This document shows, in pieces, positions 12,934 through 52,184 of a stretch of 64,000 bases of DNA. The notes beneath the pieces are model-generated. The model did no database searches. It had not been told where the DNA came from and worked only from the letters and a program-made list of their open reading frames with translations. The stretch is taken from assembly GCA_022826945.1 (NCBI GenBank), contig JAJDTY010000073.1, forward strand, positions 62,001-126,000, in the 5' to 3' direction. Position 1 is the first letter of the stretch. Every line of letters begins with the position of its first letter. Position numbers and translations under genes: made by a program. Source of the stretch: Candidatus Binatia bacterium. GTDB taxonomy: Bacteria; Desulfobacterota; Binatia; Bin18.

Positions 12934-13085
12934 GCCGGGTGTCCCCCTTTTGAATGATGCTACTGCGTAGCCTAGCCAAGACTGACAGCGGTGTCGATCT
13001 CGGCGTTTCCACACAAACATCCCGGCCTTGTCAGAAACGGTCTATATGTGACAATACAGACAGTCGTCAAAAGAAGGATAGCCGC

Positions 13086-14177: not shown

Positions 14178-14265
14178 ACCGGCCAGTATCTGCCTATCGG
14201 TTGGCAGGTGCGGTTACGTACTCAGGACCACAACGCGTTATCCGGTGTCCATATAGGGGAGGGAT

Positions 14266-15492
14266 ATGACAACCGCTATCTTTGATGTCAATAAACGCTG
14301 GTCGGAAGAGTATCCTGAGTTGGGAACCGACCCCGTGCCGACCGAACCCTGCATTTCTCCCGCTTATTTTGCGTTGGAGCGCGAACGGGTGTTCCGCAAG
14401 GTCTGGCTGTACGTGGGCCGTGCGGAAGAAATCCCCCGTCCCGGCGACTACATGGTGCGTAACCTCAAGGCCTGTCGGACCTCGATTATTTTTGTCCGTG
14501 GACAGGACGACACCATCCGCGGCTTTCATAATATCTGCTCGCACCGCGGCAATAAGCTGGCCTGGGAAGAGCGGGGAAGCTGTCAGAACTTTTCGTGCAA
14601 ATTCCACGGCTGGGTCTATGATACGCACGGCCAGTTGGTCGGCGTGCCTGATGAAGCGTTTTTTCACAACCTCGATAAAGCCGCCAATGGCTTGGTGCCG
14701 GTGGCGACCGAACTCTGGCAGGGTTTTCTGTTTGCCAATGTAGACCCGCAGCCGGCGCAGTCGTTGGCGGACTATCTGGGTGAGATGGGCCAGCGCATGG
14801 GCAGCTTTCCGTATGCCGACCTGACGGCGCGGTACGCTTATCAGACCGAGATCCGGTGTAACTGGAAAGTCGCCCTGGACGCCTTCTCCGAGGGGTATCA
14901 TGTGAATGTGATCCACGGCCGGTCCTATCCGGACACGTTTACGGGCAAGAACAACCCCATGTGTCATCTGCCCGAGGTGCGCTTCTATGGTCCACACCGC
15001 TCCTGCATTGTGTACGGCAACCCCAACCACAAGCCGAGCCCGGCCGCAGCCGTGGCCTACCGGTTTGGCGAGACGGTGACAAAGCGGTCTGCGGCTCAAG
15101 ATCAACTCCCGCCCGAGGTCAATCCTACCCGCAGTGCGGAATTCGGCTTTGACCTGGACGTGATCTTTCCCAACCTGATTCTGCATGTTCTGCCGGGCAT
15201 GTGGTTCACGCATCAATTCTGGCCGCTCGACGTGGACCGGACGCTGTGGGAAGGGCGCGCCTACTGGCCGCCAGCCACAACGCCGGGCGAACGGTTTGCC
15301 CAGGAGTTTAATAATACCGTACTGCGGAACGCCTGGCTCGAAGACACCGGAACCATGGAAGCCACCCAGGAGGCGCTCTCCTCCGGGGTGAAAACCCACT
15401 TCCATCTGCAAGAGCAGGAAATCCTGATTCGGCACAGCTATAAAGTGCTCGAAGACTACGTTGGCTTTTACGCCGCCAACGGGAATGCCTAG
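14266..15492 (+). CDS. Rieske non-heme iron oxygenase, alpha (oxygenase) subunit
   Basis: At 408 residues this has the standard architecture. The N-terminal Rieske domain has CSHRGNKL and CKFHGW, binding the 2Fe-2S cluster through Cys-His/Cys-His. The catalytic domain has bridging Asp and iron ligands in ALDAFSEGYHVNVIHG (two His) and a likely Asp ligand in LEDTGTMEATQEAL. The family hydroxylates aromatics or removes N- or O-methyl groups, using electrons from a reductase that is not encoded nearby. The setting with formamidase and other C-N enzymes hints at an N-containing substrate, which is inference. The start is behind GGGGAGGG. The next gene begins ten bases after its stop. Confidence 0.9.
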   Translation: MTTAIFDVNKRWSEEYPELGTDPVPTEPCISPAYFALERERVFRKVWLYVGRAEEIPRPGDYMVRNLKACRTSIIFVRGQDDTIRGFHNICSHRGNKLAWEERGSCQNFSCKFHGWVYDTHGQLVGVPDEAFFHNLDKAANGLVPVATELWQGFLFANVDPQPAQSLADYLGEMGQRMGSFPYADLTARYAYQTEIRCNWKVALDAFSEGYHVNVIHGRSYPDTFTGKNNPMCHLPEVRFYGPHRSCIVYGNPNHKPSPAAAVAYRFGETVTKRSAAQDQLPPEVNPTRSAEFGFDLDVIFPNLILHVLPGMWFTHQFWPLDVDRTLWEGRAYWPPATTPGERFAQEFNNTVLRNAWLEDTGTMEATQEALSSGVKTHFHLQEQEILIRHSYKVLEDYVGFYAANGNA

Positions 15493-15501
15493 GAGCGAGC
15501 C

Positions 15502-15843
15502 ATGGCCACCACCTTACCCACACCGTTTGCCGACCTCGAAGTCTTTGTGGCTGACTGGTCCCTGGCGACCCAGCGTGAGCGGGAACGGCAACGCGCTGTC
15601 AGCACCGCCGGAGAGCTCACCACTCTATACCAGGTCCTGCTGCCCCGGCTCGATGCCATGCTGGAATACTTGAACCAGTACGAACTGGACAAGCTTCCGG
15701 CCGACGCCAAGCGACTCTTTTATCTCAGTCTGTCGTTTGCCGAGATCGCCCCGTTTGTCGAATGTTATAAGGGCGAACCACGGGTGCCCAACAGCTTTGA
15801 CGAGTCCCGTTTTATTGCGGTCCACGCCGACCGCTTACCTTGA
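15502..15843 (+). CDS. Small helical protein of the Rieske cluster, unknown function
   Basis: 113 residues, ATG preceded by AGGAGCGAG and only ten bases after the Rieske gene, so it is almost certainly co-translated. It is mainly amphipathic helices (QRERERQRAVSTAGELTTLYQVLLPRLDAMLEYLNQ), followed by a short hydrophobic part. It has a single cysteine, in FVECYKGE. It does not resemble the beta subunit of ring-hydroxylating dioxygenases. No function can be given beyond a possible accessory role to the oxygenase. Confidence 0.65.
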   Translation: MATTLPTPFADLEVFVADWSLATQRERERQRAVSTAGELTTLYQVLLPRLDAMLEYLNQYELDKLPADAKRLFYLSLSFAEIAPFVECYKGEPRVPNSFDESRFIAVHADRLP

Positions 15844-15858
15844 AGATGGAGAGGACTG

Positions 15859-16368
15859 ATGGGCGAAGTCGATGTTCAGCAGCTCGCAGCCCGCGTGCAG
15901 CGCCTTGAGGACATTGAAGCGATCAAGCTTCTCGTGGTGCGTTACGCCCAGGGCGCGGACCGGGGCAATGATCCCGACATCATGGTTCCCCTGTTTGCGG
16001 ACACCGGGGTCTGGGACGGCGGGGAGCGCTTTGGGGTCTATACCGGCAAGGAAGCCATTCGGCAGTTTCTGGCCGAGTCAGGCGCGTTTATCGGCTGGAC
16101 CCTGCACTATATGGTCTCGCCCGCGGTAGACGTGGACCCTGGTGGCCAGACGGCCAGAGCGTTCTGGTATTTATGGGAAACGGCTAATATGCCCAACCGG
16201 GAGACTGGAGAAGACGACGCCTTTTGGATCGGTGGCACCTATGAGAGCGAACTGGCCAAACAGGCCGACGGGGCGTGGAAGTTTACCCGCGTGGCCCTCA
16301 ATCTCAAACTGCTGAGCCCGTATGCGGAAGGCTGGGCCAAGAAACAGTTGCCCGATGAAGAGCCGTAA
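15859..16368 (+). CDS. SnoaL/NTF2-like protein
   Basis: 169 residues beginning behind ATGGAGAGG. The pattern is the SnoaL-like opening: helix LEDIEAIKLLVVRYAQGADRG, then DIMVPLFADTGVWDGG, the YTGKEAIRQFLAE helix, and strands LHYMVSPAVDVD and ARAFWYLWE, ending in KFTRVALNLKLLSPY. The cone-shaped alpha+beta barrel serves as small hydrolases, isomerases, or beta subunits of ring-hydroxylating oxygenases. Given the Rieske alpha subunit two genes upstream, a beta-subunit-like or subsequent-step enzyme role is possible but unproven. Confidence 0.75.
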   Translation: MGEVDVQQLAARVQRLEDIEAIKLLVVRYAQGADRGNDPDIMVPLFADTGVWDGGERFGVYTGKEAIRQFLAESGAFIGWTLHYMVSPAVDVDPGGQTARAFWYLWETANMPNRETGEDDAFWIGGTYESELAKQADGAWKFTRVALNLKLLSPYAEGWAKKQLPDEEP

Positions 16369-16388
16369 ATGAGGGGAGACGAAAGACC

Positions 16389-17513
16389 ATGAGCATTGAG
16401 ACTGCCGCCTATATTGCGATCGACCGCTCCAAAACACTCCAGGAAGAACCGGCCTGTGGGCACAACCGTTGGCATCCCGATATCGAGCCGGTCGCGGAAG
16501 TCGAGCCGGGCCAGGTGATCGGGCTGGAAACCCGGGATGCCTTTGACGGTTTTATCAGCCCGGCAACCACGGCGGCTGATTTGCAAAACGCCAACCTGGG
16601 TGTCGTCCACCCGCTGACCGGACCGGTCTATGTCAAAGGCGCGCAACCCGGCGACATCCTGGAAGTTACCCTGGTTGAGGTTGAGCCCCAACCCTTTGGC
16701 TTTACCGTCCAGGTGCCGGGCTTCGGGTTTTTGCGGGATGACTTTACCGAGCCGTATATCGTGCGCTGGACGATCGAGAACGGCTTTGCAACCTCCGACG
16801 ACCTGCCCGGAGTGCGTATTCCCGGCGCGCCGTTTATGGGTGTCATCGGCCTGGCGCCCTCGCATGAACTGCTCCGACAGATCAACCAGCGCGAAGCCGA
16901 CTTGGCCGAACGCGGGGGCGTGGTCCTGCTGCCGGAGGCTAAAGACGCGATTCCTGCAGATGTGGGTATTGCCTCCACCGCCATGCGCACGATTGCCCCG
17001 CATGAGACGGGCGGGAATCTCGATATCAAGCAGCTCACCAAGGGGACGACCATCCGTTTCCCCGTCTCTACGCCGGGGGGCTTACTCTCGGTTGGCGATG
17101 CCCATTTTGCTCAGGGAGATGGGGAGTCCTGCGGGACCGCGGTCGAGATGGGGGCCACCTGTTACTGCTCTTTCAACATTCTCAAGGGCCTGGCCGCTCA
17201 GCACAATATCCGTGAGGTGCAGTTCTACCGCGAGGACTATTATACGTCGCCGGAAATGGCCGCGCCCAAACGTTTCTTTGCGACCACCGGCCAGTCGTAT
17301 ACGCGTGACGGTGTGGCCCACTCCGAAGACGCCACCCTGGCCGCGCGCAACGCCCTGCTCAATATGATCGACCACTTGGTGAGCGAGCGCGGCTATACCC
17401 GCCAGCAGGCCTACGCCATTTGCAGCGTGGCGGTGGACCTGAAAGTCAGCGAACTCGTCGATGTCCCGAACTTTGTGGTCTCGGCGTTCTTGCCGCTCGA
17501 TATTTTCGTGTGA
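16389..17513 (+). CDS. Acetamidase/formamidase family amidohydrolase
   Basis: Hydrolyses short amides such as formamide to formate and ammonia; cytoplasmic homo-oligomer, probably metal-dependent. The 374-residue sequence matches FmdA/AmdA proteins: PACGHNRWHPDIEPV near the N-terminus, NLGVVHPLTGPVYVKGAQPGD, RTIAPHETGGNLDIKQL, and VGDAHFAQGDGESCGTAVEMG. Unlike many family members it has an N-terminal extension of about ten residues. It follows the SnoaL-like gene by 20 bases in the same operon-like run. In context it probably releases ammonia or a one-carbon acid from an oxidised N-compound. Exact amide preference is unknown. Confidence 0.88.
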   Translation: MSIETAAYIAIDRSKTLQEEPACGHNRWHPDIEPVAEVEPGQVIGLETRDAFDGFISPATTAADLQNANLGVVHPLTGPVYVKGAQPGDILEVTLVEVEPQPFGFTVQVPGFGFLRDDFTEPYIVRWTIENGFATSDDLPGVRIPGAPFMGVIGLAPSHELLRQINQREADLAERGGVVLLPEAKDAIPADVGIASTAMRTIAPHETGGNLDIKQLTKGTTIRFPVSTPGGLLSVGDAHFAQGDGESCGTAVEMGATCYCSFNILKGLAAQHNIREVQFYREDYYTSPEMAAPKRFFATTGQSYTRDGVAHSEDATLAARNALLNMIDHLVSERGYTRQQAYAICSVAVDLKVSELVDVPNFVVSAFLPLDIFV

Positions 17514-24507: not shown

Positions 24508-25642
24508 CCAGGAGCGCATTATCAATATCGCCAAGGAGCTTGCGGCTGAGTTTGCCGAACGGGCCGAGCAGCACGACCGCGAGGGCAGCTTTCCGTTTGA
24601 GAATATCGCTCGGCTCAAAGAGACCCGCTATACGACCATGACCACGCCGCGGGAGTTCGGCGGCTGGGAGGCCAGCCCGCTCACTTTTGTGCTGGCTCAG
24701 GAACAGCTCGTCCAAGGCTGTGCGGCCACCGCCTTTGCCATCAATATGCACTGCAACAGCGTGGGATTTTACACGCCGTTCATGACGCAAGCGCAAAAGG
24801 AACTGTATCTGGGCAACGTCGGTCGGAAGAAAATGCTTCTGAACGGCTTTTATACCGAGGGTGGCGGAGCGCGCTCGATCATGTCGCCGGCCTCGACCGC
24901 GCGGAAGGTGTCAGGCGGCTATAGCCTCAACGGCAAGAAGGTTTTTTCCACACTCGTCCCGGCCGTGGATTATTTTGGCGTCAGTGTCTCGCTGGAAGGC
25001 TACACCGGCCCAGGTTCCGGGGGCTGTATTTTTCTTGTGCCGCGCGACACACCGGGTCTGGAGGTCGAGGAAACCTGGGATGCCATGGGCATGCGGGCCA
25101 CCGGCAGCCATACCATTACCATGCAGGACGTCTTTGCCACGCCCGAGCATCGCATTGGTGAGGAAGGGCGCCTGGCCGAAGAGTTCGCGCAAGTCGCACA
25201 CTGGTACTGTCTGTCGTTTTCCGCCTGCTATCTGGGTATCGGTCAGGCCATGTATACCCACGTCCTGGACTACGCCCGGACGCGCAAGGTCCAAAAGACC
25301 GGCCAGCGGGTTGGTGACCTGGCCTGGAATCGGTTTGCCATAGGCGAAATGTATAACCGTTTGGAGGCGTGCCGCACGCTGCTGTACACCACCGCCCGGG
25401 AAATCTCAGAGCAACGTCCGTATGGAGAGCGTCAGATTCCTACGGTTGAGATGCTCCGCACCTATATGGCCGAAAACATGCTGGAGGTCGGCAATCTTGC
25501 CACCCGCATCGCCGGCGGGCTTGGCTACCTGAAGGGCAGTCCGGTAGAGCGGGCCTTCCGCGACCTGCGCTCCGCCCCGTTGCATACCCTGAAGCGCGAC
25601 GAAGTACTGGAACTGCTGGCCGAAATGGAGTTGGGGTTTTAG
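24485..25642 (+). CDS. Acyl-CoA-dehydrogenase-like flavoprotein
   Basis: The ATG at 24485 has GGAGGAGG immediately upstream and lies inside the end of the monooxygenase gene. The 385-residue protein shows the acyl-CoA dehydrogenase fold: helical N-domain (LTADQERIINIAKELAAEFAERAEQHD), middle beta domain with GFYTEGGGARSIMS and ATGSHTITMQDVFATPEHRIG, and C-terminal helices with GGLGYLKGSPVERAFRDLRSAPLH. The usual catalytic Glu cannot be placed with confidence. The family also includes FMN-dependent monooxygenases (DszC-, SfnC-, DnmZ-like), which given the coupled hydroxylase is a real alternative. Convergent by four bases with the next gene. Confidence 0.82.
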   Translation: MFVDLTADQERIINIAKELAAEFAERAEQHDREGSFPFENIARLKETRYTTMTTPREFGGWEASPLTFVLAQEQLVQGCAATAFAINMHCNSVGFYTPFMTQAQKELYLGNVGRKKMLLNGFYTEGGGARSIMSPASTARKVSGGYSLNGKKVFSTLVPAVDYFGVSVSLEGYTGPGSGGCIFLVPRDTPGLEVEETWDAMGMRATGSHTITMQDVFATPEHRIGEEGRLAEEFAQVAHWYCLSFSACYLGIGQAMYTHVLDYARTRKVQKTGQRVGDLAWNRFAIGEMYNRLEACRTLLYTTAREISEQRPYGERQIPTVEMLRTYMAENMLEVGNLATRIAGGLGYLKGSPVERAFRDLRSAPLHTLKRDEVLELLAEMELGF

Positions 25643-26679
25643 GCCGTCTCCGAAAGCGTCACCCGCTCACCGGCCTCGTTATAGACTTTATCGCCTAAGG
25701 CAAAGTTCTCTTCCAGAAACCATTGGAGATAGGCCGCACTGGTAATGGGTGGTTCTTTGGCCGGATTCTCCGGCCCGCAACACGTGGGCAGACATTCGAT
25801 GACGGTCTCCGGGGTCGGGTGCAAGAAGAACGGAATGGAATAGCGATAGGTATCCGACGCGTTAATCACCCGGTGTGGGGTGGACAGCACGCGGCCGTTC
25901 GACCAGCGGGTCAGCATATCCCCGGAATTGATGACAAAGGCATCCGGAATGAGCGGCATTTTCAGCCAGCGGCCGGACTGGCTGAGGATTTCAAGTCCAG
26001 GCTGGTCTGACGTGGCCAGCAACGTCATAAACGAACTGTCTGTGTGTGGCCCCACGTTGAATTCGTTCTCATCCAGCCTGTCGGGCGGCATCCGCGCAAC
26101 GCGCAGAAAGTTCAAACCTTGATATCTGGGGAATTTATCGTCAAAGAAATCCGGCTCCAGGTCCAGAGCCAGGGCATACAGCGGTAACATGCGGATACTC
26201 AAATCTTCCGCGGCCTCAAAGAATTCCATCACGGTCGTGCGAAAGCCCCTCTCATTCTCGGGCCATTGATTCTGCGTGGGCCGATGACTGGGGCCCCAGT
26301 CACGCTGGAGAAGATAGCATTCGCTCACATCAGGCTTTCTGGTTCCAGTGTAATATGGCGAAGTTTTGAGCAGTTCACCCCGGGTCGGGACATACCCGTT
26401 GCCTTCTTCATTCACTTTGAGGGCCATCTTCTGTTCGAGCGGCAGGGCGTAAAAACGGGCGGTGGCCTCCACCAGTTTATCCCGAAGGGATTTGGGGATG
26501 CCGTGATTGATAATAAAAAAGAAGCCGATGCGTTCAAGGGCGTCGCGCATCTCGGCAGCCGTCGTGCGAGCCGCTCCCGGCTCTTCGGCCAGGAAAGGGC
26601 CGAGGTCAATAATCGGAACGGTTTCCCCGGCAATCGCGTACTCTTCCTGTAACGCGTGTTTGTCTTGTGCGGTCTGCAT
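25639..26679 (-). CDS. Isopenicillin-N-synthase-family 2-oxoglutarate/Fe(II) oxygenase
   Basis: 346 residues with the N-terminal DIOX_N segment (VPIIDLGPFLAEEPG, GFFFIINHGIP) and the jelly-roll core. Iron ligands appear in PHTDSSFMTLL (H-x-D) and LSTPHRVINA (distal His); the co-substrate Arg is in YRYSIPFFLHP (R-x-S). These enzymes hydroxylate, desaturate or cyclise small molecules using oxygen. It is downstream of the dimethylformamidase-like genes on the same strand (15 bases), so it likely shares their transcript. A demethylation or hydroxylation role on an N-alkyl substrate is inference. Confidence 0.87.
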   Translation of the reverse strand: MQTAQDKHALQEEYAIAGETVPIIDLGPFLAEEPGAARTTAAEMRDALERIGFFFIINHGIPKSLRDKLVEATARFYALPLEQKMALKVNEEGNGYVPTRGELLKTSPYYTGTRKPDVSECYLLQRDWGPSHRPTQNQWPENERGFRTTVMEFFEAAEDLSIRMLPLYALALDLEPDFFDDKFPRYQGLNFLRVARMPPDRLDENEFNVGPHTDSSFMTLLATSDQPGLEILSQSGRWLKMPLIPDAFVINSGDMLTRWSNGRVLSTPHRVINASDTYRYSIPFFLHPTPETVIECLPTCCGPENPAKEPPITSAAYLQWFLEENFALGDKVYNEAGERVTLSETA

Positions 26680-26694: not shown

Positions 26695-28932
26695 TCAGCG
26701 CACAAACGGCGCTGGGTCAAGAAACCGCTCCAGCACGTTGTGCGTAATACGCGAAACATTATTGTCGTAATGATTGTGTGACAGACTGCCGGCCCAGGCA
26801 ATCGAGCTCGACGACCACACCGCCCCGCCGTTGGGGGTTTCATAGAACACCATGTCCGCCCGGACCAGTTCGTTCTCGGTCCCGCCCAGACCCGGTGTGG
26901 TGACCAGTAATTCCTCGCACACCACCAGATAGATATCCGTATGACCGCCCTGGGAGGTTGCCAGCACCAGGGTGTGCGGGGGGGTGCCCAGGCGCTCGTC
27001 CGCCCGGTCGATTTCCAGACCCGCGGCCCCGCCGCCGATCAGCCCGAAATCGCCGATCACCTCGTCCTTGCCGATGCCCGCAAAAATAAAGGCCGCCCGC
27101 GCGTCAAAACTGCCCGGCAGACGACGGTACGGCGCCGAAATATCAAAGCCTTGGGCGCTAAACCCCGTGCCCAGCATGACCTGAGGAGCCCGGCCCTGAT
27201 TGCGCCACAGGCCGCCGTATTCACCGGTGAAGCTGTGGTAGTATTCGCCCGGGTCGGCAGCCCAGGTCCGAATGCCACCCTCGTTCCGCCGCACTTCCAT
27301 GAGCCCCGGACAGTCGGGATGAAAGGCCACCCGCCAATACCAGCCGTTGGCCCCCATATACATGAGTCGTCCGCCCTGATGCTGATACGCCTTCATCGCG
27401 TCCCACATCTGGAGGGAGTGGTATTCCGGATGGGTGCCGGACAGAATCACTTGGTAGGGCTTCAGCAGGGCGAGCCCCTCATAGTGCAAATCCTCATCGG
27501 TAATGACATCAAAGTCATAGCCCTTGGTCTCAAGCCAGTCGGTAATATGCGTGTCCGCATTAAACTGCCACAGGGACGAGCCGTCCCCGCCCAGGGCGGA
27601 GATATGCTTGGGCCGCATATTCAGAATGGGCCGCAAACGGGACGAATAACACACACCCGAGCCGTCCGAGTGGGAGTCATAGCACGAGCCGCCGTACTCG
27701 CGGTGTTCGTTGAGAAACAGGCTGTTCTTATCGAGTGGAGCCAGGCGGCCGCTGAGCAGTTCGATCAGGCCGGCGTTGGTGGCCATATGCTCGTTGGCAT
27801 AGGCCATATAGCTGGCGGTGGGGAGCAGAAAGGCCAGCTTTTTTTCCTTGCCTTTGGCCGGTTTGACGACAAACGGAATATAATCCTCCTCGCTTCCCGA
27901 ACGCAGCCGGGCGGCGTACAGGCCGCTCTTGAGGTCCGCCGGAACGGTCAGCGCAAAATCGACCTCCCAGCCGGCGTCGTACACATCGTCATCGTGGAAG
28001 TGGATCGCCCCGTACTGTTCCGGCGTCTGTTTCCAGTCCATGCTCTCGCCGTTCCAGTTATGGCCCTTCATGCCCCGCGCCGGCATGTTGACCGTCTCGC
28101 CGTGCAGCCGATTGGGAGACGTGTCGGTCACCCGGGTCGCACTGATATCCTGGGAAAAATCCCAGGCGCCAACCACGCTCCGCTGGAGCTGGGCGGGGAC
28201 GCCGCGCTTGAGTTGTTCCATCTCGGCCCGCTCCAGGACGCGGTTAGCCAGGCGTGGACCGTCTATTTTACCGTTGAATTTCTGGTCGAGCCTGCCGCGA
28301 CCCGAACCCGCCCGCAGCGCGCCGAACATCAGCGCCGACTGATTGGAGCCCACGCGTTCGAGTTGGATTTTCTTGCGGGTGCGGCCTGCGTCCGCAACCG
28401 TGGGATAGTCGGTCTGAGGTTCTTGATACAGGGTGACCCGCCGGGTTTCCGCGTCATAGCTCGCCGCCACAAAATACCACTGCCGGGCGAGGAGTTGTTT
28501 GTTGGTGCTCACGACTTCGACGTTGCCTTTTCCGTCGCCCAGTTGCAGGGTCAGCCGTCCGGCCTGAATCACCAGCGCAAAGCCCGAGCGCCGCCGGTCC
28601 TGCCACTTCGACACAATGGCCTGGCTGCCCTTGTCCGGCGTGGTCGGCCACAGCATGGCCTGGACGGTAAAGCTCTTGAGGTCTTGCAGCGGCGGACTGT
28701 TCGAGATCAGCACATATGAGCCCGATTCGATCGTCTGGGAGCGGCCCTTATACGATTTATTGGCCGGTGTTGGCACGACATGTTCCCTGATCCCCGGACC
28801 CTCGGGATTCAGGTCACCGCAGACCAGACGAACAATGTCGGCCCGATAGCGTGGGCGTTCGCAATTGACCATGAACTGCAGCGTTTCACCGGGGCGCGCG
28901 CTGATTTTATCGGCGTAACCAGTAATTTTCAT
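26695..28932 (-). CDS. N,N-dimethylformamidase-like large (beta) subunit with LamG domain
   Basis: 745 residues. After a short N-terminal beta region (MKITGYADKISARPGETLQFMV), residues about 75-230 form a concanavalin/LamG-like domain (VQAMLWPTTPDKGSQAIVSKW, WYFVAASYD, KIDGPRLANRVL). The remaining 450 contain the catalytic part with REYGGSCYDSHSDGSGVCYSS, LSGTHPEYHSLQMWD and GANGWYWRVAFHP. Known DMFase large subunits combine these parts and hold a mononuclear iron bound by tyrosines and a glutamate. The enzyme would hydrolyse DMF or a related N-alkyl amide to formate and amine. The small-subunit-like gene lies just upstream on the same strand, 33 bases away. Confidence 0.8.
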   Translation of the reverse strand: MKITGYADKISARPGETLQFMVNCERPRYRADIVRLVCGDLNPEGPGIREHVVPTPANKSYKGRSQTIESGSYVLISNSPPLQDLKSFTVQAMLWPTTPDKGSQAIVSKWQDRRRSGFALVIQAGRLTLQLGDGKGNVEVVSTNKQLLARQWYFVAASYDAETRRVTLYQEPQTDYPTVADAGRTRKKIQLERVGSNQSALMFGALRAGSGRGRLDQKFNGKIDGPRLANRVLERAEMEQLKRGVPAQLQRSVVGAWDFSQDISATRVTDTSPNRLHGETVNMPARGMKGHNWNGESMDWKQTPEQYGAIHFHDDDVYDAGWEVDFALTVPADLKSGLYAARLRSGSEEDYIPFVVKPAKGKEKKLAFLLPTASYMAYANEHMATNAGLIELLSGRLAPLDKNSLFLNEHREYGGSCYDSHSDGSGVCYSSRLRPILNMRPKHISALGGDGSSLWQFNADTHITDWLETKGYDFDVITDEDLHYEGLALLKPYQVILSGTHPEYHSLQMWDAMKAYQHQGGRLMYMGANGWYWRVAFHPDCPGLMEVRRNEGGIRTWAADPGEYYHSFTGEYGGLWRNQGRAPQVMLGTGFSAQGFDISAPYRRLPGSFDARAAFIFAGIGKDEVIGDFGLIGGGAAGLEIDRADERLGTPPHTLVLATSQGGHTDIYLVVCEELLVTTPGLGGTENELVRADMVFYETPNGGAVWSSSSIAWAGSLSHNHYDNNVSRITHNVLERFLDPAPFVR

Positions 28933-28965
28933 ACGTCTTCCCTCTGCTTGTGCATTGACGGCCGC

Positions 28966-29271
28966 TCAGTCCTTCTCGCCGGCATGCATCTCCCAGCGGC
29001 GCCGAAATATCTCCCGCTCCGCATCCGCAACCGAAGTGAAAACCTGGTCCTTGAACATTCTGACCGGCTTACCCCGTTCACCGGTGAGCTGGCCGAGCGT
29101 CCACTCCTTGTGGGGTTTGGTGCAGATGAGCACATATTTATCCCGAACCGGTTGGCCGCGGATGACGTTCAGCACGCGCTGTAAGGCGGGGCTGTGGTGC
29201 CCAATCGGCTTGGCGTTGAATTCCTCGACCACGGCTCGGTCGTCCGCACTAATCTGATAGACCGTATGCAT
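28966..29271 (-). CDS. N,N-dimethylformamidase-like small (alpha) subunit
   Basis: 101 residues, soluble, no signal. The sequence has the NAKPIGHHSPALQRVLNVIRG helix, then strands YVLICTKPHKEWTLGQL, a glycine-lysine loop and a C-terminal charged helix (DAEREIFRRRWEMH). I assign it mainly from position and size: in characterised DMFase operons a gene of about 130 codons precedes the large subunit, as here. It is a little short. If not the alpha subunit, it is a partner of unknown type. Confidence 0.6.
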   Translation of the reverse strand: MHTVYQISADDRAVVEEFNAKPIGHHSPALQRVLNVIRGQPVRDKYVLICTKPHKEWTLGQLTGERGKPVRMFKDQVFTSVADAEREIFRRRWEMHAGEKD

Positions 29272-29423
29272 GCGCCCCCTCCTTTGACTGGCAGGTCAAT
29301 ACAGACGGAGACTAGCACACCGCTCTGTCACAAGTCGAGAATTATGGAGTATCCAGCCGGAGACCTAGACCCTGCCGTCTGCATTTGAAAGGATACGGCA
29401 CCCCAAAGCATCAGGAGGAGGGC

Positions 29424-30518
29424 ATGAAAGCGGCGGTCTTATACGAGGTTGATACGCCCCTCAAGGTCGAAGACGTGGAGCTGGACAGTCCCAAGAGCGG
29501 AGAGGTCAAGGTCAGGATTGTTGCCAATGGGGTGTGTCATAGCGACTACTCGATTATTCATGGGGTCTTGCGCAGTCCGCTGCCCATGGTCCCCGGCCAC
29601 GAGGGTGCGGGCATTGTCGAAGAGGTCGGACCGAACGTCTCCCTGGTCAAGCCGGGCGACCATGTGGTCCTGTCGCTCGCTCCGTATTGCGGCCACTGTT
29701 ACTACTGCGCCATCGGCAAGCAGAATCTGTGCGTCAATATGTTTCAGACCATGGTGAAGGCCGCGATGGTTGACGGGACGTGTCGCCTCAAGAAAAACGG
29801 TAAAGACATTCACCACATGGCCGGCATCTCCAGCTTTGCCGAGCAGGCCGTGGTCGCCGAACAGGCCTGTATCAAGGTGCCGGACGAGGTGCCGCTCGAC
29901 GTGGTGTGCTTGATCGGCTGTGGCGTCATGACGGGGGTGGGTGCGGCTATGAACACGGCCCAGGTTGAGCCGGGCAGTAGTGCGGTCGTGATCGGCTGTG
30001 GCGGCGTGGGGCTCAACGTCATCCAGGGCTGTGTGCTCGCCGGCGCCAGTACGATTATCGGGGTGGATTTACTCGATAATAAATTAGACTATGCCCTCCA
30101 GTTCGGCGCCACCCATACCATTAATCCGAGTAGGGATGAGTTGGTGCGATCGGTGCGCAAGCTCACCGGGGGCCGGGGCGCGGATTACGCCTTTGAGGTT
30201 ATCGGTCTGTCCCAGACCGTGGAGCAAGCCTACGCCTGCACCCGCCAGGCCGGCACGACGATTGTGGTCGGAGCGGGGTCGCGGCGGGATACGGTTTCCA
30301 TTCCGATGGGGACTTTCCTGACCGAGAAGATCATCAAGGGCTCGGGTTATGGCTCGGCCCGTCCCCATATCGACATGCCTCGCCTAGTCGAGCACTACCG
30401 GAACGGGCGGCTCAAACTGGACGAAATGATTACCCGGACCTATGCGCTGGAGGAAGTGAACGAGGCCATGACCGCGCTGGAAAAGGGTGAAGTAGCGCGT
30501 AGCGTCGTGGTCATGTAA
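29424..30518 (+). CDS. Zinc-dependent alcohol dehydrogenase (class III-like MDR)
   Basis: The ATG at 29424 has AGGAGGAG upstream; an earlier ATG at 29385 lacks a site. The 364-residue medium-chain dehydrogenase has catalytic zinc ligands in GVCHSDYS and GHEGAGIVEEVG, the structural zinc lobe CGHCYYCAIGKQNLC, and the cofactor fold GCGGVGLNVIQGC. Resemblance is to class III/NDMA-dependent enzymes, which oxidise formaldehyde adducts or primary alcohols. It is divergent from the DMFase-like genes and 40 bases before the molybdo-enzyme. Formaldehyde disposal is a sensible role here but is inference. Confidence 0.9.
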   Translation: MKAAVLYEVDTPLKVEDVELDSPKSGEVKVRIVANGVCHSDYSIIHGVLRSPLPMVPGHEGAGIVEEVGPNVSLVKPGDHVVLSLAPYCGHCYYCAIGKQNLCVNMFQTMVKAAMVDGTCRLKKNGKDIHHMAGISSFAEQAVVAEQACIKVPDEVPLDVVCLIGCGVMTGVGAAMNTAQVEPGSSAVVIGCGGVGLNVIQGCVLAGASTIIGVDLLDNKLDYALQFGATHTINPSRDELVRSVRKLTGGRGADYAFEVIGLSQTVEQAYACTRQAGTTIVVGAGSRRDTVSIPMGTFLTEKIIKGSGYGSARPHIDMPRLVEHYRNGRLKLDEMITRTYALEEVNEAMTALEKGEVARSVVVM

Positions 30519-30558
30519 GACACTATTCCAGTCTGTCATTTCAGAGGAGACTTGAAGT

Positions 30559-32913
30559 ATGAGCACAGTGCAGGTTGACCCATCCATTTCCAAGGTGCCG
30601 ATTGAAACCAACGCCAAGGACCAGACGACCGTCTGTGTGCTGTGCAGTCACAACTGCGGTCTGACGGTCGATATCAATGAAGGGCATATCGAGAATATCC
30701 GGGCCGACGCTTCCAGCCCGATCTCGCACGGTTATATCTGCAATAAGGGCTTCAGCGTTGACCATTATGTTAACCATGCCCAGCGGCTCAGCCATCCGCT
30801 CAAACGCAAGCCGGACGGCGGGTTTAAACAGATCGGTTGGGACCAGGCCATTGCCGAAATAGCCGAAAGGCTCACCTCTATAATTGCTCAACATTCCCCG
30901 CGTGCCTGTGGTCTGGTTGGCATTGGCGGCCAGGCTAACCACCTGGACGCGCCGTATGGCGTCACGTTTCTGTCGTTGATGAAATCCCGCCGTTTTTTCA
31001 ACTCGCTGGCCCAGGAGAAGAGCCAGCACTGGCTGGTCGAAAAATGGATGCTGGACAGCTCCTCCGGCACCATGCTGCATCCCGACCACGACCACGCCGA
31101 CTTTCTGCTGGTCATGGGCACCAACCCCCACATCAGCAACCGGGGCCATAAGCCCACCGACGCGCTGAAAAGTCTGGCCCGCAACGAAAACCGGACCATG
31201 GTGGTGGTGGACCCGCGCATTACCGAAACCAGCCGTCAGGCCGACCGTCACCTCAGGGTCCGGCCCGGCACGGACATCTATCTGCTCCTGGCCATGGTCA
31301 AGGTCATCGTCGAACAAGACCTCGGAGACGCCGAGTTTATCGCCAACAAAACGCTCGGTTACCAGGAACTCAAAGCCCAACTGGCGGACGTGGATATCGC
31401 CGACATGGCCCAGCGCTGCGGCCTTGAGGTCGCCGACGTCGTAGCCACAGCCACCGAATACGCCACCGCCAAGACGGCCGCGTTGTTGTGGGACCTCGGG
31501 GTGGAGATGACGCTGTTCTCGACCCTGAACTCTTATCTGATTCATCTGCTGATTGCCCTGACCGGCAATATGGGGCGCCGAGGAGGCAATGTCTTCACCT
31601 CGAATTTGAACCCGCCCACGCCGGACAATCGGCGGCACGATGAGCCCGAACGCGCCCTGGCTTCCGGCATTAGCGCGATCTCGGCCCTGACCCGGCTGGG
31701 CATCTTCTCGCCGGTGCTGGTGCCCGAGGAAATCCTGCACGACCATCCCGAACGGCTGCGGGCCTTGATCGTGGAAGGCTCCAATCCGCTCTTATCCTTT
31801 CCCGACACCCAGCGCTGGCTGGAGGCGCGGGAACACCTCGACCTGCTGGTCGTGATCGAACCGACCATGACCGAGACGGCCCTGGTGGCCGACTACATTC
31901 TGCCGACCCCGACCGGTTACGAAAAATGGGAAATGGCCAGCTTCCCGCGCGGCTATCCGCGCGTGCAGACGCAGTTGCGCCCCCCCATCCTGCCCGCGCC
32001 GGGCGCGGCCCTGCCCGAAGGCGAAATCTATAATCGGCTGGCCGAGGCCATGGGTCTGGTTCCCGCACCACCCCCGGAACTCTCCGAGTTGGCGAAAGAC
32101 GCGCATCAACCCGCAGGGGCCGCGGCCTATCTGAAGACGCTCCAGACCGCGGCCAAGGCGGTGAAGTTCTCGGCTCCCTTGTACTGGGCCTACCGCACTC
32201 TGGGGCCGCAGCTCGATTCGCCGGTGCTGTCCAGCGTCTGGTTTCAGGCTGTGATGAACGGGGTTGTCCGCAAAGACTCCGTGACACGTGTCCTCGGGCC
32301 GGAATGGCGGGACAGAGATGCCTTTGCCGTCGGCCTCGAGCTGTTCCGGCGTCTCCTGGCCCATCCCGAGGGAATCGAGGTGGCCGAGCTCGATATGGAC
32401 GCCAACCTTGACGAAAGTATTGGGTTTGAAGACGGAAAAATTCGCCTCATGCCCGAAGACATCGTGGCCGAGTTGGGCCGCGCCGTTACAACCCGGCCAG
32501 CCGAAGACCCGGACTATCCCTTCGTGCTGGCCTCCGGCCTGCGGACCCGCTGGACTGCCAACACCATTCAGCGCGACCCGAGCTGGCGCAAGGGCCGCGG
32601 TCCCCACTGCGCCCTGAACCTCTCTCCCGGAGATGCCCAACGCATGGGGGTGATCGACGGCGACCGGATTCGGCTGCGTACCCGGCGGGGACAGGTCGAA
32701 CTGCCGGCCGTTGTGGACAAAAAACTGATGGAGGGGCATGTCTGGATGCCGAACGGTTTCGGCATGATCTATCCGACAGAGGGCAACGGTACAAACGCGG
32801 ACCTGAACGGCGTCAATATGAACGCCTACACGGATACGGCCGCCCGCGACCCCTTTACCGGCTGCCCCTATCACCGCTTTGTGCCGTGTCAGATTGAGCG
32901 CGTCCCGGATTGA
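30559..32913 (+). CDS. Molybdopterin-dependent oxidoreductase (formate dehydrogenase/nitrate reductase superfamily)
   Basis: 784 residues, cytoplasmic (no twin-arginine signal). Near the N-terminus is a 4Fe-4S site CVLCSHNCGL with a fourth Cys in GYICNKG. The molybdopterin domains follow with GLVGIGGQANHLDAP, DFLLVMGTNPHISNRGH, VVVDPRITETSRQADRHLRVRPGTD, and ALTGNMGRRGGN. The C-terminal beta barrel has LNLSPGDAQRMGVIDGDRIRLRTRRG and WMPNGFGM. The Mo ligand position (near EKSQHWLVEKWML) has neither an obvious Cys nor an in-frame TGA selenocysteine. Formate dehydrogenase is one possibility because formate is a product of the local amidases. No electron-transfer subunit is adjacent. Confidence 0.88.
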   Translation: MSTVQVDPSISKVPIETNAKDQTTVCVLCSHNCGLTVDINEGHIENIRADASSPISHGYICNKGFSVDHYVNHAQRLSHPLKRKPDGGFKQIGWDQAIAEIAERLTSIIAQHSPRACGLVGIGGQANHLDAPYGVTFLSLMKSRRFFNSLAQEKSQHWLVEKWMLDSSSGTMLHPDHDHADFLLVMGTNPHISNRGHKPTDALKSLARNENRTMVVVDPRITETSRQADRHLRVRPGTDIYLLLAMVKVIVEQDLGDAEFIANKTLGYQELKAQLADVDIADMAQRCGLEVADVVATATEYATAKTAALLWDLGVEMTLFSTLNSYLIHLLIALTGNMGRRGGNVFTSNLNPPTPDNRRHDEPERALASGISAISALTRLGIFSPVLVPEEILHDHPERLRALIVEGSNPLLSFPDTQRWLEAREHLDLLVVIEPTMTETALVADYILPTPTGYEKWEMASFPRGYPRVQTQLRPPILPAPGAALPEGEIYNRLAEAMGLVPAPPPELSELAKDAHQPAGAAAYLKTLQTAAKAVKFSAPLYWAYRTLGPQLDSPVLSSVWFQAVMNGVVRKDSVTRVLGPEWRDRDAFAVGLELFRRLLAHPEGIEVAELDMDANLDESIGFEDGKIRLMPEDIVAELGRAVTTRPAEDPDYPFVLASGLRTRWTANTIQRDPSWRKGRGPHCALNLSPGDAQRMGVIDGDRIRLRTRRGQVELPAVVDKKLMEGHVWMPNGFGMIYPTEGNGTNADLNGVNMNAYTDTAARDPFTGCPYHRFVPCQIERVPD

Positions 32914-32956: not shown

Positions 32957-33340
32957 ATGGCGACACAAGTTGAGATCCGACCGCCGGTTGCCATCGGTCA
33001 TGCCACGCTGCAGGTGACCGATATTGCCCGGGCAACCGAGTATTTTGTCTCATTGGGGATGCGCTTTATTCATCAATCGGACACGATTGCCGTGCTGGAA
33101 TTGCGAGGTGGCACGCACGTTGTGTTGCGTCCAACCGACGAGTCCATCCCTCCACGGACAAAAGCCCCCTTTGATCTGATGGTCGATGATGTTGAGGCGA
33201 CAAGACAGACGTATATGGATATGGGCCTACAGCCATCGGAAATCGAATCGGGCACGGTCCATCGCTGGTTTACGCTCGTCGGGCCGGACGCCTACGAGTT
33301 GACCATCACTTCATCGCACGCGGGAAAGCGGGCGGTGTAA
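32957..33340 (+). CDS. VOC-superfamily (glyoxalase/dioxygenase-like) protein
   Basis: 127 residues, a single vicinal-oxygen-chelate unit: IGHATLQVTDIARATEYFVSLGM, then DTIAVLELRGGTHVVLRPTD, FDLMVDDVEATRQTYMDMGL and HRWFTLVGPDAYELTITSSH. Candidate metal ligands are the first His and a late Glu. It would act as a dimer; the reaction cannot be deduced. Start is behind AGGAGGTC, 43 bases after the molybdo-enzyme and co-directional. Confidence 0.83.
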   Translation: MATQVEIRPPVAIGHATLQVTDIARATEYFVSLGMRFIHQSDTIAVLELRGGTHVVLRPTDESIPPRTKAPFDLMVDDVEATRQTYMDMGLQPSEIESGTVHRWFTLVGPDAYELTITSSHAGKRAV

Positions 33341-33366: not shown

Positions 33367-34338
33367 ATGCAGCAGCGCGTCCTGGGCAAAACCGGTTTTT
33401 CCGTCTCGGCCATTACCTTGGGTGGAGGCGGGATTGGGATGGTATGGGGAGCAACGACCGAAGACGAGTGTATTGAGACGGTTCAGTACGCCGTGGCCAG
33501 CGGGATCAATATCATTGATGTCGCTCCCGTGTATGGAAAGGGGAAGGCCGAGGAGGTCGTTGGAACGGCCTGGTCCGATCTGGCCGTCAAGCCGCTGCTG
33601 GCCACCAAGGTCCTGATCCGCCCCCGGGAGCGGAGCGATCTGTCCGGAGCCATCCGACGCTCTCTGGAGGGCAGCCTCACCCGTTTGGGACGCGAACAGA
33701 TCGATATATTCCAGCTGCACAACCAGATTGAATCCCGGGAGCCGGTCGCTCCGCTCCGACTGACCCTGCAAGAGGTGGTTGGAAGCGGTGGGGTGCTGGA
33801 GACTATGCAGCAGCTCAAGGAAGAAGGACTTGTCCGAGAGCTTGGGTTTACCGGTATTGCGCGCCACGATGTGGTGAGGGAACTCTTTGCCGATGGTCGG
33901 CTGGCGACGGTTCAGCTCGTGACCAACATCCTCAATTCGGAAGGAGAGATGGGGGTCGCAGAGGATGGGCCGTACCGCGATCATCTGGAAATGGTTGGCG
34001 TGGCGCGGTCCGCACAGTTCGGCGTATTTGGCATCCGGCCCTTTGCGGCCGGCTCCCTGACTGCGGCCGTTGATCGCTCGCTGCCTGCGGATCATCCCGT
34101 GGCCGTAGATTTTGCTTTCGGGCGGCGGCATTTGGGTTTCCTGACTGCCGAGACCGGTTCTTCTCTGGCCGTCGCAGCCATGCGCTACGCGTTGAGTGTA
34201 CCTGGGGTGAGCACGGTCGTAACCGGCGCCAAAAACCGGGCCGAACTCGATGACGCCATAGCCGCCGCTCAAGCAGGGCCCCTCCCGTCCGCTCTCATGG
34301 AACGGATTGCAACCCTCCAACAGACACGCACGCCGTAA
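33367..34338 (+). CDS. Aldo/keto reductase
   Basis: A 323-residue NADPH-dependent TIM-barrel reductase. Catalytic tetrad elements are visible: Asp and Tyr in DVAPVYGKGKAEEVVG, Lys in LLATKVLIRP, and His in DIFQLHNQ. C-terminal cofactor loop is GVSTVVTGAKNRAELDDAI. Related to D-threo-aldose/galactose dehydrogenase types. It starts behind GGAGAGG. Substrate unknown; likely cytoplasmic. The unknown 164-residue gene follows 21 bases later. Confidence 0.9.
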   Translation: MQQRVLGKTGFSVSAITLGGGGIGMVWGATTEDECIETVQYAVASGINIIDVAPVYGKGKAEEVVGTAWSDLAVKPLLATKVLIRPRERSDLSGAIRRSLEGSLTRLGREQIDIFQLHNQIESREPVAPLRLTLQEVVGSGGVLETMQQLKEEGLVRELGFTGIARHDVVRELFADGRLATVQLVTNILNSEGEMGVAEDGPYRDHLEMVGVARSAQFGVFGIRPFAAGSLTAAVDRSLPADHPVAVDFAFGRRHLGFLTAETGSSLAVAAMRYALSVPGVSTVVTGAKNRAELDDAIAAAQAGPLPSALMERIATLQQTRTP

Positions 34339-42487: not shown

Positions 42488-43825
42488 TCAGTACAACCCG
42501 AGATAGTTCTCCACTTCCCACTGTGAGACGGAATCGTGGTAGCTCTTCCACTCGTCGCGTTTCACCTGGATATAATACTCGGCGTACTCGCGCCCGAGCG
42601 CCTCTTTGATGACCTCGTCCTGCGCAAGCTCGTCAAGCGCTTCGCTCAGGTTGGTTGGCAGAAAACCAATCCCCTCGGCTTTCAACTCTGCTTCCGGGAC
42701 TTCATACAAATTACGGTCGTTGCGACTCCCGGCTTCCATTTTGTGCTCAATACCGTCGAGACCGGCGGCCAGCATGACGGTCGGGGCCAAATACGGGTTG
42801 GCCGCGCCGTCCACGGTCCGGTTTTCCATCCGGCCCGGACCGGGAATCCGAATCATCTGGGTCCGGTTTGACGCGCCATAGGTCACATAGACCGGGGCCC
42901 AGGTCGCCCCCGAGAGCGGGGCGCCGCGAATCAGCCGTTTATAGGAGTTCACGATGGGGGCGGTTACCGCAGCGATCGCCCGGGCGTGGTGTTTGAGACC
43001 GCCGATGAAATGATAGGCCGTCTCGGACAGGCCGTTTTCGTCGGACTCGTCGAGAAACAGATTGACCTCGCCCTCAGCATCCCACAGGCTGGTGTGAAAA
43101 TGGCAGCCGTTGCCGGTCAGATGCGAAAACGGCTTGGGCATGAAGGTGGCGATACTGCCCCGTTCTTCGGCCAGGGTGCGCACCATCCAGCGAAAAAAGG
43201 TGTGCCGGTCTGCGGTGGTCAGGCAGTCGGAGTAGGTCCAGTTGATCTCGAACTGACAGTTGGCGTCCTCGTGATCGTTGGCGTACGGGTCCCAGCCGAA
43301 CCCCTGCATATAGCTCAGCAGAGTCGTGGTGAAATCCAGGTTGCGGTTCAGGGCACGCAGGTCGTAACAGGGCTTGCTCAGCGTATCCAGCGCATCAAAC
43401 GGTTCAAAGCTGCCCTGCTCGGTCCGCCGGGTCAGAATGAACTCCGGCTCAACCCCGGTTTTGAAGCTATAGCCCTTGTCGCGGACCGCGGCTAATTGAC
43501 GCTGTAAAATCGTGCGCGGGCAGTAGGGCCAGGCTTGGTCGTCGACGGTGATATCGCTGGCGACCCAGGCCACGTTGGGGCGCCAGGGTAAAATGGTGAG
43601 GCTATTAAAATCCGGCATGGCCAGCATATCGGTATCGTGCGGGCCCTGGCCCATATTGCCCGCGGCAAACCCGGCAAAGCCGGCGCTGCCCTCGGCCATG
43701 TCCTGGAGATGGACAGCCGGCACTACCTTGGCCTTGGGCGCTCCACTCATCTCCACAAAGGAGCACAGAAAGAACTCGATACCGTTGTCCTGAACAATTT
43801 TTTCCACGTCTTGCACTGTTGCCAT
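42488..43825 (-). CDS. gmaS: Gamma-glutamylmethylamide synthetase (GlnA-type ligase)
   Basis: Joins methylamine to glutamate with ATP, giving gamma-glutamylmethylamide, the entry step of the N-methylglutamate pathway. The 445-residue protein is a glutamine-synthetase fold: N-terminal beta-grasp (VEMSGAPKAKVVPA), catalytic metal residues in GVEPEFIL, and GNGCHFHTSLWD, NSYKRL and the Arg-rich NRTQMIRIPGPGRMENRTVDGAANPYL. Sequence alone also fits type III GlnT. The seven preceding genes encoding every NMG synthase and dehydrogenase subunit make GMAS the better call. It starts behind AGGAGGG, 33 bases after mgdA on the same strand. Confidence 0.85.
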   Translation of the reverse strand: MATVQDVEKIVQDNGIEFFLCSFVEMSGAPKAKVVPAVHLQDMAEGSAGFAGFAAGNMGQGPHDTDMLAMPDFNSLTILPWRPNVAWVASDITVDDQAWPYCPRTILQRQLAAVRDKGYSFKTGVEPEFILTRRTEQGSFEPFDALDTLSKPCYDLRALNRNLDFTTTLLSYMQGFGWDPYANDHEDANCQFEINWTYSDCLTTADRHTFFRWMVRTLAEERGSIATFMPKPFSHLTGNGCHFHTSLWDAEGEVNLFLDESDENGLSETAYHFIGGLKHHARAIAAVTAPIVNSYKRLIRGAPLSGATWAPVYVTYGASNRTQMIRIPGPGRMENRTVDGAANPYLAPTVMLAAGLDGIEHKMEAGSRNDRNLYEVPEAELKAEGIGFLPTNLSEALDELAQDEVIKEALGREYAEYYIQVKRDEWKSYHDSVSQWEVENYLGLY

Positions 43826-43858
43826 GAGCCCCTCCTTTTGGTGTCGAATTGATATTGC

Positions 43859-45070
43859 CTAATGCGACACGGCGGCCGCGGCTTTCTCTCCTACTAAGCG
43901 GTCTTCGTAAAATCGGGACAGCGCAAATGGCTCGATCAAGGTCGGCGTTTTATTGGTCACAATCAACTCGGCCACTGTCTTTCCGCCCGCCGGACCGGCC
44001 TTGAAACCATAGGTGCCCCAGCCGACATTCAGGATAAACCCTTTGACTTCCGGTACAGGGCTGATGATGGGGCTGAAGTCGGGTGTCATATCACAGATGC
44101 CGCTCCACTGGCGCAGGACACGGGCTTCTTCCAATATCGGAAACAGCTCCAGGGCGTGGGCGGCCATCATCTCCAGAGTGGGCAGCGTGGAGGCACTGTT
44201 ATACGAGGCGTAGGGGTCGATCTCCGCACCGATGACCACCTCTCCCCGGTCGGTCTGATTCACATACACGTGCAGCGTGGCCGACACGATAACCTTGTCC
44301 AGAAAGGGTTTTAAGGGCTCGGTGACACAGGCTTGGAGCGGATGGGAGACAATAGGCAAGTCCACGTCCACCATGCGCGCAATGGTCGAACACCAGCCCG
44401 AGGTGGCGTTGACGACGGTGTTGGTCGCAATGCAGCCGCGACTGGTATGGACCGCGCTAATCTGACCGTTGTCGGTATCGAGAGCGTGGACTTCCGTGTG
44501 CGGATGGAGCTCGATGCCCATCCGGTCCACGCCGCGGGCATAACCCCAGACCACCGCATCATGCCGGATGATACCGCCCGGGGGATGATAGAGCGCCGCC
44601 TGGATAGGGGCATGGGCCGCTTTGCTGACATCCATGGCCGGCACAAGACTTTTGATCTCCTCGGGGAAAATGAGCCGGCTGTTGACGCCAAGCAGAGCAT
44701 TGGCCTCGGCCCGGACGCGCAAACCATCAACGCCGGTGTCCGTATGCGCCAGCGTCAGATGACCAATCTGAGAGAAAAGAACGTTAAAGTCGACTTCCCG
44801 AGACAATTCCTGATACAGCCGCAGACTCTCATCATAAAAGGGAATAGCTTCGGCCGTACGATAATTCGCCCGCAGAATAGCGGTATTGCGGCCGCTATTG
44901 CCTCCGCCGAGATAGCCGCGGTCGAGCACCGCGACGTTTTTTATCCCTTGTTTGCCGAGATAATAGGCGGTCGCCAGGCCGTGGACGCCGGCCCCGATAA
45001 TCACGACATCATAGCGATCTTTCAGATCATGTCGGCGCCACATCCGTTGGGTGCGAAAGAGCTGCAACAT
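43859..45070 (-). CDS. mgdA: N-methylglutamate dehydrogenase subunit A (sarcosine-oxidase beta-like)
   Basis: 403-residue FAD-dependent amine oxidoreductase of the DAO family. DVVIIGAGVHGLATAYYLGKQG is the dinucleotide-binding motif; GGNSGRNTAILRANY, TSGWCSTIARM and NVGWGTYGFKAGPAGGKTVAEL follow. It holds the substrate-oxidising flavin in the heterotetramer. Related heterotetrameric sarcosine oxidases would look the same; the flanking mgs genes and gmaS point to N-methylglutamate as substrate. Stop-to-start spacing of three bases after mgdD shows tight coupling. Confidence 0.85.
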   Translation of the reverse strand: MLQLFRTQRMWRRHDLKDRYDVVIIGAGVHGLATAYYLGKQGIKNVAVLDRGYLGGGNSGRNTAILRANYRTAEAIPFYDESLRLYQELSREVDFNVLFSQIGHLTLAHTDTGVDGLRVRAEANALLGVNSRLIFPEEIKSLVPAMDVSKAAHAPIQAALYHPPGGIIRHDAVVWGYARGVDRMGIELHPHTEVHALDTDNGQISAVHTSRGCIATNTVVNATSGWCSTIARMVDVDLPIVSHPLQACVTEPLKPFLDKVIVSATLHVYVNQTDRGEVVIGAEIDPYASYNSASTLPTLEMMAAHALELFPILEEARVLRQWSGICDMTPDFSPIISPVPEVKGFILNVGWGTYGFKAGPAGGKTVAELIVTNKTPTLIEPFALSRFYEDRLVGEKAAAAVSH

Positions 45071-45073
45071 GAC

Positions 45074-45829
45074 TCATCCTTGCGGGTGCAACTGACGCTG
45101 GGCGGCCAGGCCAAACGGGAGCGCGCCGAACTCCTGGCCCGCGTCCAGCAGGGCGTCCCACACATAGGCGCCAAACTCTCGTCCACAATAGACCTGGTAG
45201 GCCAGATGTGCCTGCATGTCCGCACGCAGGACCAGGGCATGGATACTTGCCAGGCTGCCTTGCGCGCAGGATAAGTCCGGGAACTGGGCGGGCCTGAGGT
45301 CCAGGGCCGTGAGCTTCCGCAATAAATCCCGACTGCGTGGCCCTACAATCTGTACGGCGGTAAAATTTGAGGTGACATCTGTCAGGTGGACGCAGGCGGG
45401 ATCTGCTGTCTGTTGTATGACTGATTCAACACGGGCGTGGACGGCGTTGGCTGTCCCGGGCGGAGAGATGAGCCGCGCGTGGTTCCCAGCCAGGGAGCAC
45501 AGCAGTCCGCCCGTCTGTGGGTCGAGTTGAAGGGCTTGGGCAGGGATGCGCACAACCCGTCCGACCGGGACGGTCTCAAGTGAAAGCCCGAACGAAAGCC
45601 CCAGTGAGAGCTTTTGTCCGAGCGAGGCGAATATATCGTTACCTTGGATATCGAGCTTGGCCAGCGGACTGATATCGCTGAGTCCGACCTGTTCCCGGAT
45701 TGCCTGTACTTCGGCGTCAACCGAGCCGTAGGAGTCGGCACACTGCCAGCCGTGGTCTTCGATCATGCTGGCCTCAGCCAGATGATAGGCATGCAGCGCC
45801 GAGCGTCGAATGAGGGGTACCGCTGCCAT
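45074..45829 (-). CDS. mgdD: N-methylglutamate dehydrogenase subunit D (sarcosine-oxidase gamma-like)
   Basis: 251 residues related to sarcosine oxidase gamma subunits and the GcvT C-terminal fold: GSVDAEVQAIREQVGLSDISPLAKLDIQGND, CVHLTDVTSNFTAVQIVGPRSRDLLRKL, and HLAYQVYCGREFGAYVWDALLDAG. It pairs with subunit C in the complex. Three bases separate it from the preceding mgdC stop. Confidence 0.85.
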   Translation of the reverse strand: MAAVPLIRRSALHAYHLAEASMIEDHGWQCADSYGSVDAEVQAIREQVGLSDISPLAKLDIQGNDIFASLGQKLSLGLSFGLSLETVPVGRVVRIPAQALQLDPQTGGLLCSLAGNHARLISPPGTANAVHARVESVIQQTADPACVHLTDVTSNFTAVQIVGPRSRDLLRKLTALDLRPAQFPDLSCAQGSLASIHALVLRADMQAHLAYQVYCGREFGAYVWDALLDAGQEFGALPFGLAAQRQLHPQG

Positions 45830-45832
45830 ATC

Positions 45833-48998: not shown

Positions 48999-49003
48999 GG
49001 AGA

Positions 49004-51036: not shown

Positions 51037-51045
51037 GGTACGTCC

Positions 51046-51972: not shown

Positions 51973-52184
51973 GTGTCTTCTCGTTCGGTTTGGTCTTCGG
52001 TGTTTAGGACAACGAGGCTTTCGATGTGTATACGGCCTACCGGCGCAGGGTGTCAAGTTTGAAAACCGCCGTGACGCCGTAGGCATATGGACGGCTTGGC
52101 CCGACAGGGAGTGAGACGCTGAATGACTGCATGAATAGCCAACGGAGGCTTGATGTGACGCATATGTCAGAATATATGTACGGC

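Follow-up and report, generated by a model that had tools for sequence, protein, structure and literature searches.

The dmfS-dmfL operon

The window, by which we mean the whole 64,000-nucleotide stretch analysed here (G000:C17:62001-126000, where G000 is the genome that carries it), contains a two-gene operon on the reverse strand. Its first gene, dmfS (28966..29271, 101 aa), ends 33 bp before dmfL (26695..28932, 745 aa), which is predicted, from domain matches, a match to 6lvb_A and an AlphaFold2 model, to encode the large subunit of a two-subunit Fe(III) amidohydrolase. A LamG/pentraxin domain (approximately residues 71-237) and a catalytic DMFA2_C domain (287-724) were identified in the dmfL product by domain search (Laminin_G_3, E=4e-12; DMFA2_C, E=3.8e-106). 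The large subunit of the Paracoccus dimethylformamidase (DMFase; 6lvb_A) matches residues 3-743 (E=4.8e-179), and the preliminary description of a DMFase-like large subunit with a LamG domain is thereby borne out. An N-acetyl-(R)-beta-phenylalanine acylase (8huy) also matches over the full length (E=2e-164, 552 bits), the identity being 41.7% to the DMFase large chain and 39.2% to 8huy. The AlphaFold2 model (pLDDT 85) superimposes on 6lvb_A with a TM score of 0.92 and on 8huy with 0.86; it is of low confidence at approximately 549-574 and 669-680, both of which are part of the pocket.

In the Paracoccus enzyme the iron is held by Tyr399, Tyr440 and Glu521, while His519 and Asn547 are catalytic (PMC7686228). 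The two tyrosines and one glutamate that the preliminary description had singled out for alignment are all present in the dmfL product: Tyr378, Tyr418 and Glu503, the predicted ligands, align with those of DMFase, and His501 and Asn529 correspond to His519 and Asn547 (alignment, 6lvb numbering).

The dmfS product matches the DMFase small subunit (6lvb_B) with E=4e-4 as a single sequence and with E=8e-14 when a family profile of 26 sequences is used. A Foldseek search with its predicted fold returned the DMFase small subunit (E=1e-5, probability 1.00, TM 0.72) and no other significant PDB match. A DmfS homologue lies directly upstream of dmfL at all loci of the window clade with the exception of L061, L068 and, in L059, the second copy, a pairing that spans Binatota, Myxococcota and Proteobacteria; none was found beside paralogues B and D of the window genome, the Chloroflexi copies or the acylase-like Pseudomonas copies. 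Since the pair is kept across the window clade and no DmfS homologue accompanies these other copies, there is strong evidence that dmfS encodes a true subunit, as its earlier recognition as a small-subunit-like partner had suggested.

By its domains, its ligands and its small subunit, the dmfL product is a member of the DMFase superfamily (DMFA2_C, two-subunit type). It shares with the Paracoccus enzyme (DmfA1/DmfA2; 6lvb, 7w8j; plasmid pAMI2) the domain order, the 2-Tyr-1-Glu ligands, the essential His and the position of the small subunit gene just upstream. The small subunit, however, is shorter in the window (101 aa, against 132 aa in Paracoccus), and no LuxR regulator gene precedes the window dmfS.

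Separation from the proven dimethylformamidases

Four dmfL paralogues, the window copy included, are encoded in the window genome. Orthologues of the window copy occur in six congeners (91-97% identity) and in other genera of the family (72-74%). In the tree, the proven DMFases (6lvb and DmfA2 of pAMI2) lie inside a 14-row group (100/99) together with paralogues C and B, whereas the window copy is not a member of this group and clusters with copies from marine and sponge proteobacteria, Myxococcota and other Binatota. A topology that unites the window copy and DMFase in one clade was rejected (delta lnL 54, AU p=0.000193), and the branches were also separate in a quick tree.

We defined as DMFase-specific the 28 positions at which at least 90% of the family share one residue and DMFases have another. 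The window copy carries the family residue at all 28 and the DMFase residue at none; among these (window/DMFase) are His311/Trp331, Ser425/Arg447, Arg432/Trp454, Glu571/Arg588 and Trp576/Phe593. Some of the DMFase-specific substitutions may represent drift, given the long DMFase branch (length 1.27). Outside this set, the window copy has Val677 in place of DMFase Phe693, a residue that constricts the DMFase pocket and restricts larger amides (PMC7686228).

Phylogenetic placement shows that the window enzyme is not a DMFase orthologue and that its branch is distinct from that of the proven DMFases. Assignment as an N,N-dimethylformamidase proper (EC 3.5.1.56) is not supported, given the separate clade, the lack of all 28 specific residues and Val677, and the identity as a DMFase or N-methylformamide hydrolase put forward in the preliminary description lacks support on the same points. 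The window clade represents the non-DMFase form of this two-subunit enzyme; it is widely distributed, and its pocket is apparently wider.

Two of the other paralogues have distinctive surroundings. Paralogue C (G000:C20:134852-137499, L045) has its own small subunit and groups with DMFase and with a copy on an Aminobacter plasmid (pcAMD1); an amidase gene lies near it. Judged by this grouping, paralogue C is the likelier DMFase-like enzyme of the window genome. Paralogue D (L044:7489-14744) is situated between a carbonic-anhydrase-like gene and a gene for a flavoenzyme of the TMADH/dienoyl-CoA-reductase type, which is closest to TIGR03997 (mycofactocin OYE 2) and is followed by a FadJ-like gene.

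Neighbouring genes and the methylamine locus

A divergent zinc dehydrogenase and a molybdopterin enzyme had been placed beside the pair in the preliminary description, and both genes lie at or next to the positions given there. The zinc alcohol dehydrogenase (29385..30518 (+), likely start 29424) is class III-like and divergent from dmfS; among the loci of relatives that were compared, such a neighbour of dmfS-dmfL (hereafter dmfSL) was seen only within the genus. The molybdopterin oxidoreductase (30559..32913 (+)) is a cytoplasmic-looking protein of the DMSO-reductase superfamily with one 4Fe-4S site and without the Cys/Sec-His ligand motif; in all five sequences aligned (this protein and four homologues) AQEK(S/T)QH stands at the Cys/Sec-His position of formate dehydrogenases. 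It scores 234.7 bits against the formate dehydrogenase profile, for which the cut-off is 666, and an Fdh-alpha above the cut-off is encoded elsewhere in the genome (G000:C4). A formate dehydrogenase role for the molybdo-enzyme was rejected on the grounds of this Mo-site motif, the protein at G000:C4 being the stronger candidate.

Nor is the dehydrogenase/molybdo-enzyme combination a conserved partnership, since outside the genus the molybdo-enzyme is divergent from dmfSL only in G007, where the alcohol dehydrogenase is absent. The molybdo-enzyme also has homologues in G017, G018 and G020, genomes without a dmfL match, and no recurring partner was found around them. The handling of one-carbon products previously proposed for the two enzymes is therefore not supported: the motif is missing, a true Fdh-alpha lies elsewhere and the dehydrogenase neighbour is confined to the genus. 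Further along the same strand are genes for a VOC/glyoxalase-like protein (32957..33340 (+)) and an aldo/keto reductase (33367..34338 (+)), neither of which was found in the G006 flank.

On the other side of the operon, a 2OG-Fe(II) oxygenase gene (25639..26679 (-)) starts 15 bp after dmfL on the same strand. It is present in G003, G004 and G005; G001 and G006 lack it, and it was not detected behind dmfL in G002. The slot behind dmfL is occupied by a different gene in G001 and G006 (L047, L050/L036:7851-8690), in G006 a NYN-domain gene. Because it is missing in some congeners, with the slot taken by another gene, the oxygenase was rejected as an obligatory step.

The N-methylglutamate (NMG) locus, with gmaS, mgd and mgs genes, occupies 42488..52194 (-), with a gap of approximately 13.2 kb to the dmfSL operon. 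This pathway (gmaS, mgsABC, mgdABCD) is known in Bin18, a sponge-associated order (both described in PMC8262859), and the gene set in the window is the one known for it. The window genome is that of a Candidatus Binatota bacterium and probably belongs to this order, judging by its closest named relatives, which are Candidatus Binatia/Binatota MAGs and include bin18. The distance between gmaS and dmfL is approximately 10-25 kb in the window genome, G004 and G006; it is approximately 497 kb in the closed congener G001, and in G003 the two genes are on separate contigs. With a threshold of E<=1e-100, no gmaS was found in G005, G007, G009 or G010, all of which have dmfL. Since the genes are distant or unlinked in some genomes and gmaS was not found in others, linkage is not a conserved feature and coupling of the NMG pathway to dmfSL was rejected; the comparison thus yields no evidence of a joint pathway. 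The association of dmfSL with the methylamine pathway looks accidental, and the idea that the pair feeds the NMG locus is not supported by the comparison.

The step from dimethylamine to methylamine is indeed missing within the window, as had been noted. The genome contains a haem N-demethylase alpha-like (HODM) domain outside the window (E=4e-77), and such a gene is present in the seven genomes of the genus and in most family members searched, unlinked to dmfSL; no partner-subunit genes were identified beside the alpha-like gene in its partly annotated neighbourhood. We take this gene to belong to the family of dimethylamine monooxygenase, and the homologue could cover dimethylamine, which would weaken the argument from a missing step. 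One of two PF00724 matches in the genome is the OYE-type gene beside paralogue D; the signature of trimethylamine dehydrogenase is the Cys30 flavin link with Tyr60, Tyr169 and Trp264, and these residues are replaced in the alignment, so that the gene was rejected as a trimethylamine or dimethylamine dehydrogenase.

The window also holds 2OG-Fe(II), FAD and LLM oxygenase genes. A cluster encoding an LLM monooxygenase, a Rieske oxygenase, a SnoaL-like protein and a member of the FmdA/AmdA formamidase family (12954..17513 (+)) lies approximately 9 kb from dmfL, and genes for FmdA-family proteins and LLM monooxygenases occur near dmfSL within the genus, in G008 (L042:10753-13669) and in marine proteobacteria (L064:13385-15234). 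In the marine proteobacterial relatives, dmfSL adjoins genes for an FmdA-like protein, an LLM monooxygenase and an amidase, the FmdA and LLM neighbours being distant homologues only. Two marine single-cell genomes have a nitrile hydratase divergent from dmfS-dmfL (L072:8295-9556, L091:8293-9620); its alpha and beta subunits were recognised by Pfam in L072, and L091 has the same gene clusters. An amidase-cluster gene is located approximately 4 kb downstream in both of these loci. Elsewhere, hydantoinase A/B genes stand beside dmfL relatives (L055, L071), or an LIV-type ABC transporter is in line with dmfL (L060, L067). No single consensus neighbourhood was found for the window clade, the contexts varying by lineage. 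They fit amide scavenging in general, without pointing to one substrate.

Proposed function and competing readings

We propose that dmfSL encodes a two-subunit Fe(III) amidohydrolase for a scavenged N-substituted amide bulkier than DMF, and give this reading a probability of roughly two in three. Fe(III) on Tyr378, Tyr418 and Glu503 would polarise the amide carbonyl, and His501, with Asn529 nearby, would assist the attack of water, with a carboxylate and an amine as the products of amide cleavage. The small subunit would be placed at the dimer interface and the active-site entrance, and the cell would import the amide for its nitrogen or carbon. The substrate is most likely bulkier than DMF because His311, Ser425, Arg432, Glu571 and Trp576 are kept and Val677 replaces the gating Phe693; this estimate of size comes from a few pocket residues, partly in low-confidence regions of the model. 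The hydrolytic activity, the larger substrate and the scavenging role are all inferred.

According to the original suggestion, dmfSL would split DMF or an N-methylformamide into formate and di- or monomethylamine, with the NMG pathway taking the amine and the molybdo-enzyme and alcohol dehydrogenase taking formate or formaldehyde. The iron ligands, the small subunit, the nearby NMG locus and the haem N-demethylase homologue agree with such a route, as does the acceptance of N-methylformamide by the Paracoccus DMFase (PMC7686228). The position of the window copy outside the DMFase clade, where paralogue C groups and the window gene does not, its lack of DMFase-specific residues, the loss of NMG linkage in G001 and G003, the failure to find gmaS in four dmfL genomes and a molybdo-enzyme that is not of the formate dehydrogenase type nevertheless make it quite unlikely. 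The gene order, in which 2OG oxygenase, dmfL and dmfS face the dehydrogenase, would also accommodate a three-enzyme deformylation cassette: the oxygenase would hydroxylate an N-methyl amide, the dehydrogenase would make the N-formyl from the N-hydroxymethyl compound, and dmfSL would free formate. Hydroxymethyl adducts are substrates for dehydrogenases of the class III type. Formyl amides are preferred by DMFase (PMC7686228). We consider this scheme highly improbable, as G001 and G006 keep dmfSL and the dehydrogenase without the oxygenase gene, and the dehydrogenase neighbour does not extend beyond the genus.

The relationship with the 8huy acylase leads to another reading, in which the substrates of dmfSL would be amides that bear a carboxylate, such as N-acyl amino acids, with Arg432 binding the carboxylate at the position where Trp454 marks the DMFase branch. 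The window copy shares with the acylase the full-length homology, the iron ligands, the absence of the gating Phe and the motifs HSDGSGV, SSRLRP and GEYGGLWR, which are changed in DMFase; some relatives also adjoin amino-acid genes, such as those for D-amino-acid dehydrogenases on a B. vietnamiensis plasmid. The two proteins lie on separate deep branches. Against this reading, identity is slightly higher to DMFase, and the carboxylate-binding role of Arg432 is putative. The acylase entries list the large chain only (in 8huy, chains A and B of one kind), whereas the window pair has a conserved small subunit, and an enzyme of the N-acetyl-(R)-beta-phenylalanine acylase type was rejected for this reason. 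We regard the wider reading as unlikely.

The annotation "dimethylformamidase" by itself should not lead one to infer metabolism of DMF or methylamine. Before industry there was no DMF in the environment, and to our knowledge no natural precursor of DMFase is known. The fold of DMFase is distinct and its 2-Tyr-1-Glu iron site unusual; the window clade bears on the natural role of this fold. It is possible, though unlikely, that the clade hydrolyses a class of N-substituted amides of natural origin, such as formamides produced by sponges or elsewhere in the sea; if this were true, it would show the role of the DMFase fold before man-made DMF.
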